Part shown: positions 44,292-51,484 of the stretch, piece by piece | Position numbering within the stretch: position 1 is the stretch's first letter | Layout of the letters: each line of letters opens with the position of its first letter | Origin: a virus | DNA length: 64,000 nucleotides | Virus record (IMG/VR): IMGVR_UViG_3300035190_000147 | Location: 1-64,000 of that record | Reading direction: 5' to 3' (one strand) | The notes under the pieces: model-generated | Seen by the model: the letters and a program-made list of their open reading frames with translations, nothing else | What the model was told of the DNA's origin: nothing | The model's database searches: none | Position numbers and translations under genes: made by a program

Positions 44292-44726
44292 TTACTTTGT
44301 AATCTTTAAATCTTTTACGGAATTTTTACCAAGTTTTAATTGAATAATGCCGTTGTAGTTGTTTTCACGCAACAAGACATCTTCCTTAAATTGGTAATAG
44401 GCTTCCAAGTAATTAGTTTCGCCTCTTGAGCTACACAGATGTATAATCTCACGAGTAAATTTCTCTTTGCCTAGTTGCTCAATATCTTCTATTAAGCGGT
44501 GTGATGAGCCCCAATAATCTTTCCAGTCTGTTTCTATGACTTCGTGTCGTTTATTTTTCTTGCCTTTTAGAGGTGGTCTCTTTTTGATGGTAGTAAAGTA
44601 TTTGCGGCCGATGTAATCGTGCCCGTTGGTCGTATTTGTTATTCTATATATAAAGCCATAATAAGTTTGAATATCCTCGGAGTCAAATATTACACCATTG
44701 TACGTCCAAGGATATTCGTATGCCAT
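44292..44726 (-). CDS. GIY-YIG-type nuclease
   Basis: A 144-residue protein. TYYGFIYRITNTTNGHDYIG with YIGRK gives the GIY-YIG strands, tyrosine pair and arginine; the catalytic Glu candidate is in NYLEAYYQFKED. Related single-domain nucleases (Seg-type) are common in T4-like phages, often as free-standing homing endonucleases. It has no extra DNA-binding domain, so target preference may be low. It lies eight bases after the small basic gene. An AATAAATA octamer overlaps the previous stop but is too close to the ATG for normal use. It borders the structured stretch at 43.8-44.3 kb. Confidence 0.8.
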   Translation of the reverse strand: MAYEYPWTYNGVIFDSEDIQTYYGFIYRITNTTNGHDYIGRKYFTTIKKRPPLKGKKNKRHEVIETDWKDYWGSSHRLIEDIEQLGKEKFTREIIHLCSSRGETNYLEAYYQFKEDVLLRENNYNGIIQLKLGKNSVKDLKITK

Positions 44727-44734
44727 GATACTAT

Positions 44735-44920
44735 TTATTTCGCAGCCATCGCATTTTTCTTCTCTTGGATTTCTGCACGACGAGCTTTAGCTAATTTAGC
44801 CAAGTCACCTAAAGCGCCACGAGCACGTGCTGCCGCTGCTTTAACGCCCTTGTCTTCAAACTTTGCGCTTTCATCTGTGTATACTGCTACTGCTGCTAAA
44901 ATATCTTCATGAATTGACAT
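44735..44920 (-). CDS. Small basic Ala/Lys-rich helical protein
   Basis: A 61-residue protein (MSIHEDILAAVAVYTDESAK ... KLAKARRAEIQEKKNAMAAK), one amphipathic N-terminal helix then an Ala/Arg/Lys-rich helix reminiscent of small DNA-binding or histone-H1-like proteins. Similar tiny proteins recur in aquatic phages, function unknown. CAGGAG gives a strong ribosome binding site, and a TTAAATAA octamer lies upstream. Confidence 0.72.
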   Translation of the reverse strand: MSIHEDILAAVAVYTDESAKFEDKGVKAAAARARGALGDLAKLAKARRAEIQEKKNAMAAK

Positions 44921-44968: not shown

Positions 44969-46741
44969 TTATTTTATTTCTACATCGTTGTTATAGGTTG
45001 TAAACCCATTCTCTTTTACTACTGTTAAAATATTGTTTACACGACCTGCTAGTTCATCTTTGTGCGACACTAACCAAATAGATTTGTTATTTTCTCTAGT
45101 CATTTTCTTAAGGATAGCCAGGGCATTTTCAACACCCGACGTATCCATACCCGAATCAACAAGCTCATCGATAAACAATAAGTTAATTGGTTGATATAGG
45201 CTTTCCCACACATCACGGAATGCCCATGACAAGCTAAGGATAAGTCTATTACGTTCACCACGGCTCAAGTTATCAAAATCTAACTCGCGCCCTAGCTCTT
45301 GAATTTCTACACTTAGATCGTTTAGGAACTTAACACTATGCGGTAAGCCAATCTTATCTAAGTAATAACTTAAGCGTGCGTTTAAGTAGCTTAAGTTCTG
45401 GTCAATGATACGTTTACGTATAAACGAATCTTTGTTTGTTAATAGTTTTAATAAGAATTCTTGATGTTCTTTAACACGCATCAGCTCATTCATTACAGTG
45501 TAATCAATTTCAGCTAAAGCTGTGGTCTTCATTTCTTCAATTTGTTCATTGTAGGGATCAGTTTCGGCAACCTTACCTGCTAGCTGTGTTTGTAAGCTAG
45601 CCACAGTACTACGATGATGGATAGCATCTTCTTCTTTATCGTAGAACACCTTAGGCTGTTGACCTAACTCACCTAGCTCTTTTCTAGTTGCTTGGAACAA
45701 TTGTAACTGTCCGTATAATTCAATGTACTGTTTGTGTGCTTCTGCTAAAGTAGCACGTTTACCTGCTAAAACTTCTTCGTGCTTGTTATCATGGAATGTT
45801 TGCCCACAAGCATAACAAGTATGCGCTTCTAAGTCGGCAATTTCTTTTTCCGTTTTGTCTACTAATTTTTGTTCACGAACACAATCACTATCGGCACGCA
45901 AGATAGCCTTGTCTAAGTCACCTAAGTCCTTGCGCTTTTGATTATACGCAGTTAGATCTTTATGTGCTTGAATTTCACTGTCAATATCAATTTTAAGCAA
46001 CTCATCTAAGGCAGTTTGTAGTTTTGCTACATCATCTGCGTACTTAGTAGTCCACATAGTTTGTCGACGTTTTAGGCTGTCAATTTGTTCTTCTATACGC
46101 TTATTTGCGTCAGTTATAGCCTTAATATTGTATTCTTCTTGGGTAATTGCTTCCTTAGTAGCCTTACCCTGTTCTTTAAGTAAATCAGCCTTTTCACTTA
46201 GTAAAGTGATACCAAGTAACTGTTCAATAATAGTGCGTTGGTCGTTGGCCTTAAGACTTAGGAATGGTTCTGTATAGGTGTTAAGTGCGACAATATGTTT
46301 GAACATATCGTGACTCATGCCTAGTAAGCGTTCAATCTCCTGCTGAGTCTCACGGCTATCACCTTGACTATTATCGTCTTTGGCTTCTTGCTCTTGATCA
46401 CCGATGTAAAATTTAAGTACGTTTGACTTGCGTCCACGCTCAATACGGTAGTCAATACCGTTAACTTCAAAATCAATAGTAACTAACATACCCTTAGCAT
46501 TAGTTTTATTAATTAAGTTATCTTTCTTAATGTTGGTAAGTGCTGTACCGTATAAGGCATACGACAGTGCGTTAATGATAGTAGTTTTACCAGTGCCGTT
46601 ACGTGCGCCACTGTCGTCGCCACCTAGGTCAACGTTTTCGCCTAAGACTAAAGTTAAGTCTTGCCGGTCAAAGTTGACAGCCTGTGTAGCATTACCTACA
46701 CTCATAAAGTTTTTAACTGTGAGATATTTTATTTTAAACAT
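44969..46741 (-). CDS. gp46: Recombination endonuclease subunit gp46 (Rad50/SbcC-like)
   Basis: A 590-residue ATPase of the Mre11-Rad50-type complex that resects DNA ends for recombination-dependent replication. Walker A GARNGTGKTT at 45-54, long coiled coil, zinc hook CYACG near 305-312, signature LSRGERNR near 490 and Walker B NLLFIDELVDSGMD near 517. Length is near T4 gp46 (560). It acts with gp47, but three unrelated genes lie between the two here. A sigma70-like promoter overlaps the end of the upstream gene. Confidence 0.94.
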   Translation of the reverse strand: MFKIKYLTVKNFMSVGNATQAVNFDRQDLTLVLGENVDLGGDDSGARNGTGKTTIINALSYALYGTALTNIKKDNLINKTNAKGMLVTIDFEVNGIDYRIERGRKSNVLKFYIGDQEQEAKDDNSQGDSRETQQEIERLLGMSHDMFKHIVALNTYTEPFLSLKANDQRTIIEQLLGITLLSEKADLLKEQGKATKEAITQEEYNIKAITDANKRIEEQIDSLKRRQTMWTTKYADDVAKLQTALDELLKIDIDSEIQAHKDLTAYNQKRKDLGDLDKAILRADSDCVREQKLVDKTEKEIADLEAHTCYACGQTFHDNKHEEVLAGKRATLAEAHKQYIELYGQLQLFQATRKELGELGQQPKVFYDKEEDAIHHRSTVASLQTQLAGKVAETDPYNEQIEEMKTTALAEIDYTVMNELMRVKEHQEFLLKLLTNKDSFIRKRIIDQNLSYLNARLSYYLDKIGLPHSVKFLNDLSVEIQELGRELDFDNLSRGERNRLILSLSWAFRDVWESLYQPINLLFIDELVDSGMDTSGVENALAILKKMTRENNKSIWLVSHKDELAGRVNNILTVVKENGFTTYNNDVEIK

Positions 46742-46748
46742 AATTTAA

Positions 46749-46777
46749 AGTTTACAGGATTAGTAATAATAGATCAA
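46749..46777 (-). promoter_or_regulatory. Host sigma70-like promoter before gp46
   Basis: Minus strand TTGATC, 17 bp spacer, TAAACT: 4 of 6 in each box, so moderate. It lets gp46 be expressed separately from gp47 and the inserted genes. Confidence 0.5.
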
Positions 46778-47457
46778 CGTTTATTTTGCCAATATTGCGC
46801 TTGTATTTTATCAATCTTATCACCGACTCCTAGTGCCAGTGCTTGCTCTATAAGTTTAGCTAATCGGAATTGAAATTCTAAACACGGTACAGAGTTTTGT
46901 TCAGTTGAATCGTGATAAACATAAAATTCATCGCTAACATATTGATCGTATAAACTCTGTTCGTTGTAGATTAATTCTTTAAAACTATCAACAGGTATGT
47001 CGTACCCTTTTAGCACTAACAGTGGAATGTTTTTATGATCGCAATAGAACCTTAGCAACTTAAGTTTTATTTCTAAGTCTTGTAACTCTAGTCTGGGACT
47101 ATACAAATAATCAAACCACATCTGCTTAGAGGGATGTTCTAGGCTATTACTGCTTGGCCAAATGCCATCTACAGTAAAATTTCTTAAAGAATCTGATTTA
47201 ACCAAACTTAATTCTCTAACAGCATTAACCTCTACATCTAATTTGCCTAAAGAACTCAACTGAATAACAACATAGTCAACAGGATTGTTCAACACATAAC
47301 TAATTGCTCGATTTAAGATCCATTGGTTGCTAACAGCAGGCCCGCCTACATCGATAATCTTAAGGCCTGTTAACTTTAGGACATTACCCCAAGTCTTACG
47401 CTTTTGATCACTCCACGTAATACCGCAACCACTAATTAATACTTTTTTGTCTGACAA
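46774..47457 (-). CDS. SGNH-hydrolase-like protein
   Basis: A protein of 228 residues if started at the TTG at 47457, which has AAGGAT 7 bases upstream; a longer ATG start at 47484 lacks such a site. Block I is VLISGCGITWSD (GDS replaced by SGCGIT), followed by DVGGPAVSNQWI and YVVIQLSSLG, the order of SGNH/GDSL esterases. The catalytic Ser would be in or near the GCGIT turn, and is not certain. Esterase or deacetylase activity on a sugar is plausible. It overlaps the radical SAM gene upstream by 26 bases. Confidence 0.6.
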   Translation of the reverse strand: MSDKKVLISGCGITWSDQKRKTWGNVLKLTGLKIIDVGGPAVSNQWILNRAISYVLNNPVDYVVIQLSSLGKLDVEVNAVRELSLVKSDSLRNFTVDGIWPSSNSLEHPSKQMWFDYLYSPRLELQDLEIKLKLLRFYCDHKNIPLLVLKGYDIPVDSFKELIYNEQSLYDQYVSDEFYVYHDSTEQNSVPCLEFQFRLAKLIEQALALGVGDKIDKIQAQYWQNKR

Positions 47458-48256
47458 TGACGTTATCCTTAAGTAAATGATCAAAAATTACAGCTTGTGT
47501 TTGATCAGGACACTGCGCACACACTGACTCTGGTTTTCCTATCAGGCCGATAAATTGTGTTAGGTCGTCTGTGCTAGACAACGCCTGATAAGCAAACCAA
47601 TTCTCACCTGTATAATCTATAGCATTGGCTACAGCTGGGCATTTGTATAGCTTATTTTTATATAACACAGGGGTATTGGGCGCACCACAGATGCGATGTG
47701 CGCCAGCCGGATCGCCGTTAGCAGCCTTAATACTACTGCCTTCAACAGCATACGGTGTTACAAATTCACCAAATTTACTTTTGTAAATTTTAAATCCAGG
47801 GCGATGCCACTCAATTTGTTTGTGGTCACTACCGCCGTATTGCGCCATACGCCAATCTCTGTGATGTGATAATATTTGTTTAATATTGGCATTTATTAGG
47901 TGCTCGTGATCTTTACGATGTACGCTAACCTGCACTTCAAACGGTGTAAATTCGTACCAAGCATCACTGGCAAAGTTGTCTAATAGATACCCGTTGGTAA
48001 TTAGTCGTAAAGTAGCATCAGGCCAATAGAATTTAATTGTTCTACAAACATCTATTAGTTTAGGATGGAGGGTTGGTTCACCGCCGAATAAAGTAATAAT
48101 ATTAGGATGTATAACCTTAGACCATTCTTGACTCCACGATTCTATTTCAGTCAGGCTAGCAACACCTTTACGGTCAAGGTCGCTAAGGCTTACGCAACCT
48201 CGGCAAGCAAGGTTACACGCATACGCAATCATAAAATCAAGACGATCTATTTTCAT
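47432..48256 (-). CDS. Radical SAM enzyme
   Basis: A 274-residue enzyme from the ATG at 48256; the longer frame starts with TTG. The [4Fe-4S] motif is CNLACRGC (C14, C18, C21), followed by LFGGEPTLHP (GGE, SAM binding) and RLITNGYLL. Near the end, AQCPDQTQAV and an earlier CGAPNTPVLYKNKLYKCPA supply extra cysteines like a small SPASM or twitch domain, which binds a second cluster. Such enzymes often modify peptides or proteins; the substrate here is unknown. It overlaps the genes on both sides, so the cassette is translated as a unit. Confidence 0.85.
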   Translation of the reverse strand: MKIDRLDFMIAYACNLACRGCVSLSDLDRKGVASLTEIESWSQEWSKVIHPNIITLFGGEPTLHPKLIDVCRTIKFYWPDATLRLITNGYLLDNFASDAWYEFTPFEVQVSVHRKDHEHLINANIKQILSHHRDWRMAQYGGSDHKQIEWHRPGFKIYKSKFGEFVTPYAVEGSSIKAANGDPAGAHRICGAPNTPVLYKNKLYKCPAVANAIDYTGENWFAYQALSSTDDLTQFIGLIGKPESVCAQCPDQTQAVIFDHLLKDNVIVRQKSIN

Positions 48257-48923
48257 AGTTAGTTTTGTACACAGACAGCTGGTCAATATCTACATCTATT
48301 CCAAATGTATTTAAGATCATTGCTCTAACCTGCGTGGGTTCCTGTATTAGCTGTTCGTATGCTATGGTTAAATTATACTCAGTTGCGGGTTCAGGTTCTC
48401 TAATATACAGCATCTCAATGGCCTTTTGTCTGTTTTCCTCAGTAGGATCTATGTTTTCGGCTGTAAGGATCAATGACAGATTGTCCATTTGATAATTGAT
48501 CATTTTTAAAAAATTAGGATTCTTTGCGGTTCTAGCAAGAATCTTCACTTGGCCGACAAACATATCACCGATTGGCTCTTTTACTAGTAACACCTTAGTC
48601 AATTGTTGATTTTTAAGATATTTCCACAACTGTTCGTCGTGGGGATTTTGAATACGTAGACTTTTAACATCATCTAACATAGATCTAGCAAGCTCTACGT
48701 GCCGATGTGTTGGTACAATTTCGTATAATGTATTATGCGCACGTCGTATCTGCGGATTAGGAATAGGTTTAAGGAACTCTTGCTCAAAACAATCGTTAAC
48801 CTTATACCTACCTGTGCTTGTTTTAAATCCGTTAATGGGGGTACTTTGTGGTGCTTGACTTAAAATATAACTGAGGTATTCTCCGCCTGCCCCTTGATCG
48901 TAGTCAACAAATAAAAATGGCAT
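48237..48923 (-). CDS. P-loop-like / sulfotransferase-like protein, uncertain
   Basis: A 228-residue alpha/beta protein with an N-terminal strand-glycine-turn-helix FLFVDYDQGAGGEYLSYIL, and a later KVLLVKEPIGDMFVGQV. This resembles nucleotide or PAPS-binding sulfotransferase-like proteins of phages, but the signature is incomplete. The first gene of the three-gene insert, it overlaps gp47 as TAATG, so its expression is tied to gp47. Substrate unknown. Confidence 0.6.
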   Translation of the reverse strand: MPFLFVDYDQGAGGEYLSYILSQAPQSTPINGFKTSTGRYKVNDCFEQEFLKPIPNPQIRRAHNTLYEIVPTHRHVELARSMLDDVKSLRIQNPHDEQLWKYLKNQQLTKVLLVKEPIGDMFVGQVKILARTAKNPNFLKMINYQMDNLSLILTAENIDPTEENRQKAIEMLYIREPEPATEYNLTIAYEQLIQEPTQVRAMILNTFGIDVDIDQLSVYKTNYENRSS

Positions 48924-49939
48924 TATAAGTGGCGATAAATGTCTAAAAGTAAATTCGGATCATAGTGATCGCTATTAATATTAGTCAATTGGTTAGTAAC
49001 AATAGTATCAATACTTTCAAAAGCAATGTTACCTAATTGTATGTCTTGCCCGATGTCCATGTTTTTAACAGGAATTAAGGTAAGCTCACGTAGATTGTAT
49101 GTACCAACAAATGTTTCTTTAATAAACGTAGCTTCTTCGTAGGTAATATCAACATCAATATTAACGCGACAGTGCATGTCTGCTAATAATAATGTGTCTG
49201 GCGTGCGCAATACATCACTTAAACTGTATACACGATATTTGGGTTGACCCGGCCAAGCATGGAACTCTGGATCTTCACCCCAAGTAAGTATCATCATACC
49301 ACGTTCATCATCGCCGGCGTCTGCGTAGTTGTGTGGAAACGCATTACCAATATAAGTAACATTCTTACTAGTTTGACGTTTGTGGAAGTGTCCGCTAAAC
49401 ATATGATCGATATGACCAAAGTGCTCTCTACGCAATTCACCATGCTCTGGCATCTGTACCATGGCATTCATAAAGAAGTGTGGTAATTCAAAATGGCCAA
49501 ACATATACTTGGCATTCATTTTAGGAATCTTTTTATAGTCATCGCCTACTAACCACGGCACAATGGCAACATCACCTTCACTATAGAAATCATTTACGAT
49601 TTCAATGTTAGGAATGTGTCTAGCCCATTCAGCTGACTGTATATCACGCTTGTCACGATAATATAAATCATGATTACCTGGAATAAAGATAACACGGTCA
49701 AAGGCTTTGCCCAACAACTCTAATGCTGTTAGGCTATAGTTTAAGGTAACAATGTTGATAGCCGCTCGATTATTATGCCAATCACCTAGCATAAAGCAAA
49801 CGTCGCACCCTTCTTCTTTTGCCTTGGTTATAAACCATTTAACAAAGTTTAAACAATCATCATTGTGTAGCTGACTGTTAGACTTTAAGCCGAAATGGAT
49901 ATCAGTAAGCACTGCTGCTTTTTTAAATAAGTTTGCCAT
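48923..49939 (-). CDS. gp47: Recombination endonuclease subunit gp47 (Mre11/SbcD-like)
   Basis: A 338-residue calcineurin-type phosphoesterase, the nuclease partner of gp46; T4 gp47 has 339. Metal-binding motifs in order: LTDIHFG (13-17), LGDWHNN, PGNHDLYY, GHFELPH and SGHFHKRQ. All are intact, so the enzyme should be active. A sigma70-type promoter overlaps the stop of the upstream gene. Downstream the gene is coupled by TAATG to the inserted P-loop-like gene rather than to gp46. Confidence 0.95.
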   Translation of the reverse strand: MANLFKKAAVLTDIHFGLKSNSQLHNDDCLNFVKWFITKAKEEGCDVCFMLGDWHNNRAAINIVTLNYSLTALELLGKAFDRVIFIPGNHDLYYRDKRDIQSAEWARHIPNIEIVNDFYSEGDVAIVPWLVGDDYKKIPKMNAKYMFGHFELPHFFMNAMVQMPEHGELRREHFGHIDHMFSGHFHKRQTSKNVTYIGNAFPHNYADAGDDERGMMILTWGEDPEFHAWPGQPKYRVYSLSDVLRTPDTLLLADMHCRVNIDVDITYEEATFIKETFVGTYNLRELTLIPVKNMDIGQDIQLGNIAFESIDTIVTNQLTNINSDHYDPNLLLDIYRHL

Positions 49940-49946
49940 AGTAATT

Positions 49947-49975
49947 AGTATAACACTCTATAAAAGTAAAGTCTA
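49947..49975 (-). promoter_or_regulatory. Host sigma70-type promoter before gp47
   Basis: Minus strand TAGACT, 17 bp spacer, TATACT: 4 of 6 and 5 of 6 consensus bases, about 8 bases before the ATG. Confidence 0.65.
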
Positions 49976-51484
49976 CTCATAACCCATAGCTTTGGCTATC
50001 TCGGGGTGTGTCTTAGAGAAATCTTGATTTCTAATTTGGTCTAATCTCTTCATTTGGTTAACAAATTCTTGCCCGTCAGACCCTAATGAAACATTAATTA
50101 TCTCAACTATATCATTGATGTGTGCCTGATGCTTGTGATTATGTATTGCTGTTAGTTTACCTAACACTAATTTTTTAGCATTAGGTGTTAACTTGCTGAT
50201 AGATTGATATTTGGGATCGCTTATATAATAGAAGTAGGTGCTGTCGACATTAATCGAATTAATCCAATCTAAAAACTCGGGAATATAATATACATTTTGT
50301 ATACTTACTACTGTAGAAATACCAATTTTAACTGTGGGCAAACTAATTAGTTGTTGTATATTATTAGCAACATTATCCCACTTTGCCCCATACCGCTCTA
50401 GTTCAAATTTTTCATTGATATTATCAACACTAACTGTTATTTCTAATCTTTCAAATTTATCAGCAAACGGTATAATACCAGATATATCAGTGCCATTGGT
50501 AGTAATGTACAAAATAGTTTGTTGACTTAATTTAGAAGTTACTAAAAAATTTAAGAATTCTATATTTTGTTTTAGTAGTAACGGCTCACCACCTAACAGT
50601 TCAAAATTTTTGATAGTAACGGAATGTTGCTTAAGTTGATCCCAAAATTTAGGATCCATTGCCCATTTACCGGATTCTATTAGAGTATGATATGGCGACC
50701 CTTTTCTATCACTGAGTGGTAATTGCTGTAATTCTTCAGACGCAATAGAAGAACTAAATTCTCCGCTACAAATTCTACATCTTAGATTACATATATTTCC
50801 GGTACCCCCACCAAAATATAATAGCTGACCTTCATTTTCCCAATCTATTAAATCATACACATTTTTTAACTTATACTCTGATAGTGTTCGTCTACTTTCT
50901 AAGCCTGAATCTTCTCTGTTCCAACAAGTGTCACACGCTGTTGGCTTTTGCCCATCTCTAAATTGTTGTCTTAAGTTTGCCATCCAATCACTGCCTAGTA
51001 GTTCAGTTACCGAATGATCTTTGATATTGAGAAATTCCCCAGAGTCAGTTATTTTACTGCTAATATCGCAGCATGGTCCTGCTGTACCATCGGGAAAAAT
51101 ATGTATGCCCACCCAAGCATGGGCACAAAATTGGTTATTTAAATTGAACAACGGTTTTTTATAAGGAATAACAGTTTCAGCATGCTCTACTAAAATAACA
51201 TTTAATTTATTATTTAGATATTCAACAGTGGTTTGCTGATTTGAAACAATTATAATAAAAAAATCTGGGATATCGATGCGTAGCAATGTTTGATACAGGT
51301 GCTCTAAAAGAGCTGTATCTGTTTTTGAGAACGTATAAAATACTAGTCTTTCTGCAGGCAAAAAAATATCTTTTTTGATTGGCTTTAAAAACCGATATAA
51401 AAAAGAGCTAGGTTGCGAGTACAGCTGGTCTAAGTCGTACTCGCATAATACTGTATATTGATTTAAAAAATCAAATTTATTCAT
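49973..51484 (-). CDS. Radical SAM protein with N-terminal twitch-type cysteine domain
   Basis: A 503-residue protein from the ATG at 51484, whose ATGAATAA overlaps the gp55 stop. The cluster motif CNLRCRIC (C232, C236, C239) is followed by LLGGEPLLLKQN and YITTNGTDIS. Ahead of it, residues 115-190 carry HIFPDGTAGPCCDIS and CDTCWNREDSG, a twitch/SPASM-like cysteine set placed before the core rather than after it. Such proteins are known in T4-like phages of aquatic bacteria; the substrate is unknown. It follows gp55 and precedes gp47, in one operon. Confidence 0.85.
   Translation of the reverse strand: MNKFDFLNQYTVLCEYDLDQLYSQPSSFLYRFLKPIKKDIFLPAERLVFYTFSKTDTALLEHLYQTLLRIDIPDFFIIIVSNQQTTVEYLNNKLNVILVEHAETVIPYKKPLFNLNNQFCAHAWVGIHIFPDGTAGPCCDISSKITDSGEFLNIKDHSVTELLGSDWMANLRQQFRDGQKPTACDTCWNREDSGLESRRTLSEYKLKNVYDLIDWENEGQLLYFGGGTGNICNLRCRICSGEFSSSIASEELQQLPLSDRKGSPYHTLIESGKWAMDPKFWDQLKQHSVTIKNFELLGGEPLLLKQNIEFLNFLVTSKLSQQTILYITTNGTDISGIIPFADKFERLEITVSVDNINEKFELERYGAKWDNVANNIQQLISLPTVKIGISTVVSIQNVYYIPEFLDWINSINVDSTYFYYISDPKYQSISKLTPNAKKLVLGKLTAIHNHKHQAHINDIVEIINVSLGSDGQEFVNQMKRLDQIRNQDFSKTHPEIAKAMGYE

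Follow-up and report, generated by a model that had tools for sequence, protein, structure and literature searches.

Radical SAM cargo has been known in T4-like phages since 2010, and a function for it has been lacking. According to the sections considered here of two published accounts, the T4-like Campylobacter phages CP220 and CPt10 carry interchangeable clusters of radical SAM genes with a putative glycine amidinotransferase (PMC2853527), and pelagimyophages carry radical SAM cassettes and glycosyltransferases in a host recognition cluster, with freshwater SAR11 phages reported to be without radical SAM proteins (PMC7029224). Here, we describe three genes (hereafter, the trio) encoding a P-loop-like protein, a radical SAM enzyme, and an SGNH-like protein that lie between gp47 and gp46 in a 64 kb window (the whole stretch of DNA analyzed) taken from a 66.8 kb IMG/VR fragment of a lake phage (IMGVR_UViG_3300035190_000147). 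Comparisons with related phages show that the three genes are a true, co-inherited functional module that is carried as phage cargo.

The genes of this locus are located on the minus strand in the order gp55-like sigma factor, N-twitch radical SAM protein, gp47, P-loop-like protein, radical SAM enzyme, SGNH-like protein, and gp46. The two flanking genes match the SbcD-like (gp47; PHROG E-value 3e-59) and SbcC-like (gp46; PHROG E-value 6e-102) phage families. The stop codon of gp47 and the start of the P-loop gene are coupled as TAATG (1 nt overlap), 20 nt are shared at the following junction (P-loop/radical SAM) and 26 nt at the one after it (radical SAM/SGNH, with a TTG start of the SGNH-like gene chosen by comparison with relatives), and 32 nt separate the SGNH-like gene from gp46. 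A first-pass annotation, made from the sequence alone, had proposed three overlapping genes with coupled starts at this position, and both points are confirmed by the coordinates, the overlaps, and the PHROG and Pfam matches.

Separate searches for relatives started from the P-loop protein, gp47, a radical SAM profile, and an SGNH profile; those seeded with the P-loop, radical SAM, or SGNH protein returned largely overlapping sets of contigs. A total of 38 distinct radical SAM proteins were identified, and the 33 that were not flagged as cut by contig ends form the basis of our counts. In 33/33 of these loci, the SGNH-like gene adjoins the radical SAM gene and a P-loop gene is found nearby, contrary to the possibility, raised with the original proposal, that the genes do not co-occur across genomes. 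The P-loop gene (type 1) lies upstream, in the order P-loop, radical SAM, SGNH, in 25/33 loci; a diverged type 1 gene lies downstream, in the order radical SAM, SGNH, P-loop, in 3/33 loci (all marine); and a second P-loop family replaces the first in 5/33 loci (L113, L116, and L120-L122). Because the trio recurs in dozens of phages with 35-66% identity, its arrangement is far beyond chance. It occupies at least four genomic sites across freshwater and marine phages: the gp47-gp46 interval in the freshwater phages, a position next to tail genes (L101, L136-L151), the vicinity of UvsX-like genes (L104-L106), and that of ClpP and DNA-ligase-like genes (L128-L130). The set is kept at these differing sites and therefore moves as a unit.

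A scan of 84,980 cellular genomes with the P-loop protein returned zero matches, and the radical SAM scan of cellular genomes returned one archaeal contig (L190; NZDU01000042.1, titled as a Pacearchaeota metagenome-assembled genome). The trio of this contig follows the diverged marine order and its neighboring genes match phage contig L129, so the contig is probably a misbinned phage sequence. Among cultured phages, there was no match to the P-loop protein or to the marine form of the SGNH-like protein, and two distant matches to the radical SAM protein were found.

A survey of the gp47-gp46 junction in related phages, as suggested by the first-pass annotation, covered 63 distinct gp47 lineages with a visible junction. 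The trio was present in 17 lineages, the junction was empty in 15, and other cargo was found in 31, including SGNH proteins with intact active sites, sulfotransferase-like proteins, amidinotransferases, a short-chain dehydrogenase, a methyltransferase, an N-twitch radical SAM protein, and homing endonucleases. In an empty-site relative (L022; gp47 95% identical to that of the window), gp46 directly follows gp47 as TAATG. The gp47 tree, built with a quick method and containing many open forks, requires at least eight changes of trio state, five of which are forced by well-supported branches. The gp47-gp46 junction is thus a cargo hotspot beside a second one at the gp55-gp47 junction, directly upstream of gp47 (L010, L024, L027, L030, L038, L051, L058, and L065), where homing endonucleases, SGNH proteins, a sulfotransferase-like protein, and a B12-type radical SAM-like protein were identified from sequence. 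No RNA element or tRNA was found at the insertion site. Given that both junctions take many unrelated genes and homing endonucleases, the trio could also be three unrelated cargo genes that share a hotspot by chance and have no joint function. However, retention of the set in 33/33 loci over at least four sites and deep divergence, with the type of P-loop gene exchanged and never lost, makes this explanation extremely improbable.

The radical SAM protein of the trio matches Pfam Radical_SAM (PF04055) with 31.4 bits (cut-off 29.5) and contains CxxxCxxC and GGEP motifs. The core motifs are invariant in 12 aligned sequences, as are four cysteines that follow the core (positions 190, 206, 246, and 249). 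The latter are typical of a one-cluster twitch-like domain, which the protein is predicted to contain; no separate accessory-domain model matched it in the Pfam search. Its PDB profile matches are 7wzv (E-value 4e-12), YydG, MoaA, and NifB. Sub-threshold matches to prokaryotic viperin models were found for both radical SAM proteins of the window, as would be expected if these enzymes performed viperin-like antiviral or anti-defense nucleotide chemistry. This is very improbable, given that the match (32 bits vs. a cut-off of 180) is limited to the radical SAM core, that MoaA and others reach the same score, and that viperin is not known to have an accessory cluster with four cysteines such as the one conserved in the trio.

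The N-terminus of the P-loop-like protein (MPFLFVDYDQGAGGE) is nearly invariant in the alignment of the freshwater family, and the protein had no Pfam match in the window search. Its AlphaFold2 model (predicted local distance difference test [pLDDT] score 93.3) has sulfotransferases as the top solved-structure matches (E-value 3e-3), with a low template modeling (TM) score of 0.38, and the sole PDB profile match, to the CurM sulfotransferase, is non-significant (E-value 0.66) and comes from a C-terminal YEDL segment. The canonical 5'-phosphosulfate loop (K/R-S-G-T-T type) is not present in the alignment, where the loop reads DQGAGGE, a non-canonical yet conserved sequence, and the Walker A lysine is absent. 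One member of the second P-loop family (L040) matches Pfam Sulfotransfer_3 below the cut-off (E-value 7e-4), and profile comparison found no convincing overall match between the two families. Judged from alignment and model, the P-loop-like protein appears to be most like sulfotransferases; we keep the original P-loop-like label, under which this likeness had been overlooked.

A P-loop protein in this position could also point to DNA or nucleotide hypermodification, in which it would phosphorylate or activate a modified base or nucleotide that the radical SAM enzyme rearranges, in DNA protection or counter-defense. Known phage thymidine hypermodification involves P-loop kinases and a radical SAM isomerase, the flanking gp46 and gp47 function in DNA metabolism, and a 5-hydroxymethyldeoxyuridine DNA kinase was found far down the list of viral fold matches (E-value 0.04, probability 0.14). 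This explanation is nevertheless quite unlikely: the leading fold matches are sulfotransferases and not DNA kinases, the lysine that is lost belongs to Walker A, and the gp46/gp47 site is one among several.

The SGNH-like protein (model pLDDT 77.8) has fold matches to TesA and other SGNH enzymes (E-value 8e-4, probability 1.0), which supports the fold assigned in the first-pass annotation; the loss of catalytic residues had escaped notice. The position of the catalytic serine is taken by an invariant glycine (SGCG) in 12/12 aligned sequences as well as the marine form. In a profile alignment onto canonical SGNH cargo, the catalytic histidine is missing from block V, which has the sequence N-x-V-P. 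Because both residues are missing, the protein is not classed as a hydrolase and would be a non-hydrolytic partner. If true, a conserved non-catalytic SGNH partner would mean that a biosynthetic system makes non-hydrolytic use of this fold. Elsewhere (L193, 15452-17028), an SGNH gene whose GDS motif is intact overlaps with a divergent radical SAM gene, which suggests that the pairing of radical SAM and SGNH genes is older than the loss of the SGNH active site.

The proposed gene set had missed a frequent partner: an AGAT-type amidinotransferase gene lies at most 6 kb from the module in 11/33 loci. This family matches human AGAT (2jdx; E-value 5e-10) as well as inosamine-phosphate amidinotransferase, and retains an invariant GHxDG motif and catalytic cysteine; the window record itself had no amidinotransferase match in a Pfam ADI search. 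In L104, genes for a GDP-mannose dehydratase and a sugar C-methyltransferase are located 0.5-2 kb downstream of the trio. In related phage records, amidinotransferase homologs overlap genes for a nucleoside diphosphate (NDP)-sugar epimerase and a DegT aminotransferase (L184) or are next to a NodU carbamoyltransferase gene (L185), and a predicted sulfotransferase gene abuts a distant radical SAM relative in L154. Similar enzymes tailor aminocyclitols and sugars, namely the twitch radical SAM enzyme BtrN, the amidinotransferase StrB, the sulfotransferase NodH, and the carbamoyltransferase NodU. Because the enzyme types and the neighboring genes point in this direction, we tentatively suggest that the trio may serve to tailor a carbohydrate of the amino-sugar or aminocyclitol type.

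Several observations weigh against this suggestion. No glycosyltransferase or sugar gene lies beside the trio in the window, and relatives that lack the trio often encode NDP-sugar epimerases as well. The likeness to sulfotransferases consists of a weak fold match (TM score 0.38) and motifs, with a GAGGE loop that lacks the K/R-S-G-T pattern. The best solved relatives of the radical SAM protein use varied substrates (YydG, peptide; MoaA, GTP; NifB, cluster), and its sequence therefore gives no pointer to sugars. Since the radical SAM sequence shows no sugar preference and these phages often carry sugar genes in any case, our confidence stays somewhat short of an even balance. Genome-wide NDP-sugar genes were considered as a discriminator and rejected, as they were found alike in groups with and without the trio.

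In the single-cell Marine virus AG-345-D19 (L157, 4528-6005, and L160), a split NodU-like carbamoyltransferase gene was observed beside the gene for a radical SAM relative. Another contig of AG-345-D19 has genes for an amidinotransferase, NodU, and two SGNH-like proteins together, and a sulfotransferase-like gene on the same contig was recognized by eye, without a Pfam hit.

Among the peptide, sugar, or lipid pathways envisaged originally, the sugar option fits the neighboring genes best and the peptide option is retained as a less likely rival. In the latter, which would resemble the maturation of ribosomally synthesized and post-translationally modified peptides or of virion proteins, the radical SAM enzyme would modify a phage protein, the sulfotransferase-like protein would act on tyrosines, and the SGNH-like protein would carry the substrate. 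Peptides are the substrates of many twitch/SPASM radical SAM enzymes, and the best solved relatives include a peptide epimerase (YydG). The fold matches of the P-loop model include tyrosylprotein sulfotransferase, and in marine phages and L101, the neighbors of the trio are tail sheath/tube genes. On the other hand, there is no small precursor gene beside the radical SAM gene within the cassette, where the overlaps leave no room for one. Nor does the trio have a constant protein partner, given that its site varies between phages (gp47-gp46, tail genes, the UvsX region, the vicinity of a DNA ligase-like gene), and we regard peptide or protein modification as rather unlikely.

Judged from sequence, the trio is probably cotranscribed with gp47 and gp46, starting at a promoter before gp47, and its translation probably relies on coupled starts. 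If the carbohydrate reading is correct, the radical SAM enzyme may abstract a hydrogen from a sugar ring, leading to oxidation, epimerization, or deoxygenation, and the sulfotransferase-like protein may transfer a group from, or bind, a nucleotide resembling 3'-phosphoadenosine-5'-phosphosulfate. The SGNH-fold protein would keep hold of the substrate, present it, or act as a scaffold for its two partners. In about a third of the modules, an amine of the same product would also receive a guanidino group from the amidinotransferase encoded nearby. This product might be destined for host envelope glycans, excluding competing phages, or for virion fibers.

The radical SAM gene upstream of gp47, which the first-pass annotation had grouped with the trio, belongs to the 'twitch domain-containing radical SAM' family NF033640 (286.5 bits; cut-off 170), and both radical SAM proteins of the window exceed the Pfam cut-off. 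Its gene overlaps the gp55-like gene by 8 nt and ends 33 nt before gp47. A single ortholog was found at the same junction (L072; 49% identity), in a phage without the trio, and the gene is absent from the gp55-gp47 junction in the other trio phages in which this junction is visible. The family cut-off was passed in 12/16 larger phage records searched, most of which contain arrays of 4-8 N-twitch genes, with or without the trio; a contig near-identical to the window (G007) has four in a row. The family identity of this gene thus stands, and its membership in the module as a fourth component was rejected in view of the trio phages that lack it and the arrays elsewhere. Within this T4-like clade, tandem arrays (4-8 genes) were observed in L191 (7-12 kb), L192 (7-13.5 kb), L193 (6-13.3 kb), G002, G004, G006, G013, G015, and G016, with genes for NodU carbamoyltransferase and SGNH proteins nearby in L192 and L193, and tail-fiber-like genes before the array in L191. 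Cultured counterparts of the arrays were found only in Vibrio phages K566/K567 (about 22-24%).

In most of the relatives examined, sites resembling TAGACT-17-TATACT were found by eye immediately before gp47, and the site in the window presumably drives gp47, the cassette, and gp46. The claim that gp46 has acquired its own promoter was not upheld: the resemblance at the SGNH-gp46 junction, read by eye, is only 8/12 (TTGATC-17-TAAACT), and a promoter scan had no match there (27 sites in the region vs. 29 expected in shuffles). Just downstream of gp46, the window encodes a small histone H1-like Hc1 protein (44735-44920; Pfam 42 bits), found in the same place in many relatives. The window also encodes a SegE-type GIY-YIG protein (44292-44726; Pfam E-value 2e-37), whose best PHROG (phrog_447) has the apparently wrong label 'NAD synthetase'.

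Table 1 Coordinates of the features at the gp47-gp46 locus in the window.
Feature	Position	Strand	Basis or remark
gp55-like sigma factor	end at 51477	-	upstream of N-twitch radical SAM gene
N-twitch radical SAM protein (NF033640)	49973..51484	-	adjacent cargo gene, judged outside the module
Promoter-like site before gp47	49947..49975	-	TAGACT-17-TATACT with TG
gp47 (SbcD/Mre11-like nuclease subunit)	48923..49939	-	left flank of insertion
P-loop-like protein, 228 aa, sulfotransferase-superfamily-like	48237..48923	-	open reading frame, alignment, AlphaFold2 model
Radical SAM enzyme, 274 aa, ATG start	47432..48256	-	Pfam, alignment, PDB profile matches
SGNH-fold protein, 227 aa	46774..47457	-	alignment, fold matches
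gp46 (SbcC/Rad50-like subunit)	44969..46741	-	right flank of insertion

We found no description of the trio or its function in the open-access literature. It is possible, although we hold this with more reserve than the carbohydrate assignment, that a divergent sulfotransferase-like protein, a twitch radical SAM enzyme, and a dead SGNH protein form an essentially phage-exclusive trio that makes an undescribed chemical group and moves as a unit. The trio is a tractable unit for finding the product of such cargo, given that it is small and complete, shows strict conservation, and is almost entirely lacking in cellular genomes. Aminoglycoside and nodulation-factor tailoring uses the enzyme types that are known or predicted in the module and its neighborhood; this likeness is by analogy alone, with no complete pathway present. 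The nearest cultured-phage relative of the radical SAM protein (25%) is found in Synechococcus phage S-SCSM2R (PQ898602.1, 226-237 kb), which, like the trio loci, has an amidinotransferase (inosamine type) in the same cluster, whereas its radical SAM gene lies among glycosyltransferase genes and an AHBA-synthase-type gene, and the annotation shows neither an SGNH nor a P-loop partner beside it. Compared by description, CP220 and CPt10 are likewise T4-like phages that carry radical SAM cargo with an amidinotransferase, but their clusters contain 10-12 genes with five radical SAM genes each, and an SGNH or sulfotransferase-like partner and the gp47-gp46 site are not mentioned in the sections of that account considered here (PMC2853527). 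In the corresponding sections on pelagimyophages, the trio is not described and the radical SAM cassettes are located in a tail-fiber island; what these phages share with the phages studied here is that T4-like aquatic phages have acquired radical SAM cassettes near glycan genes (PMC7029224).

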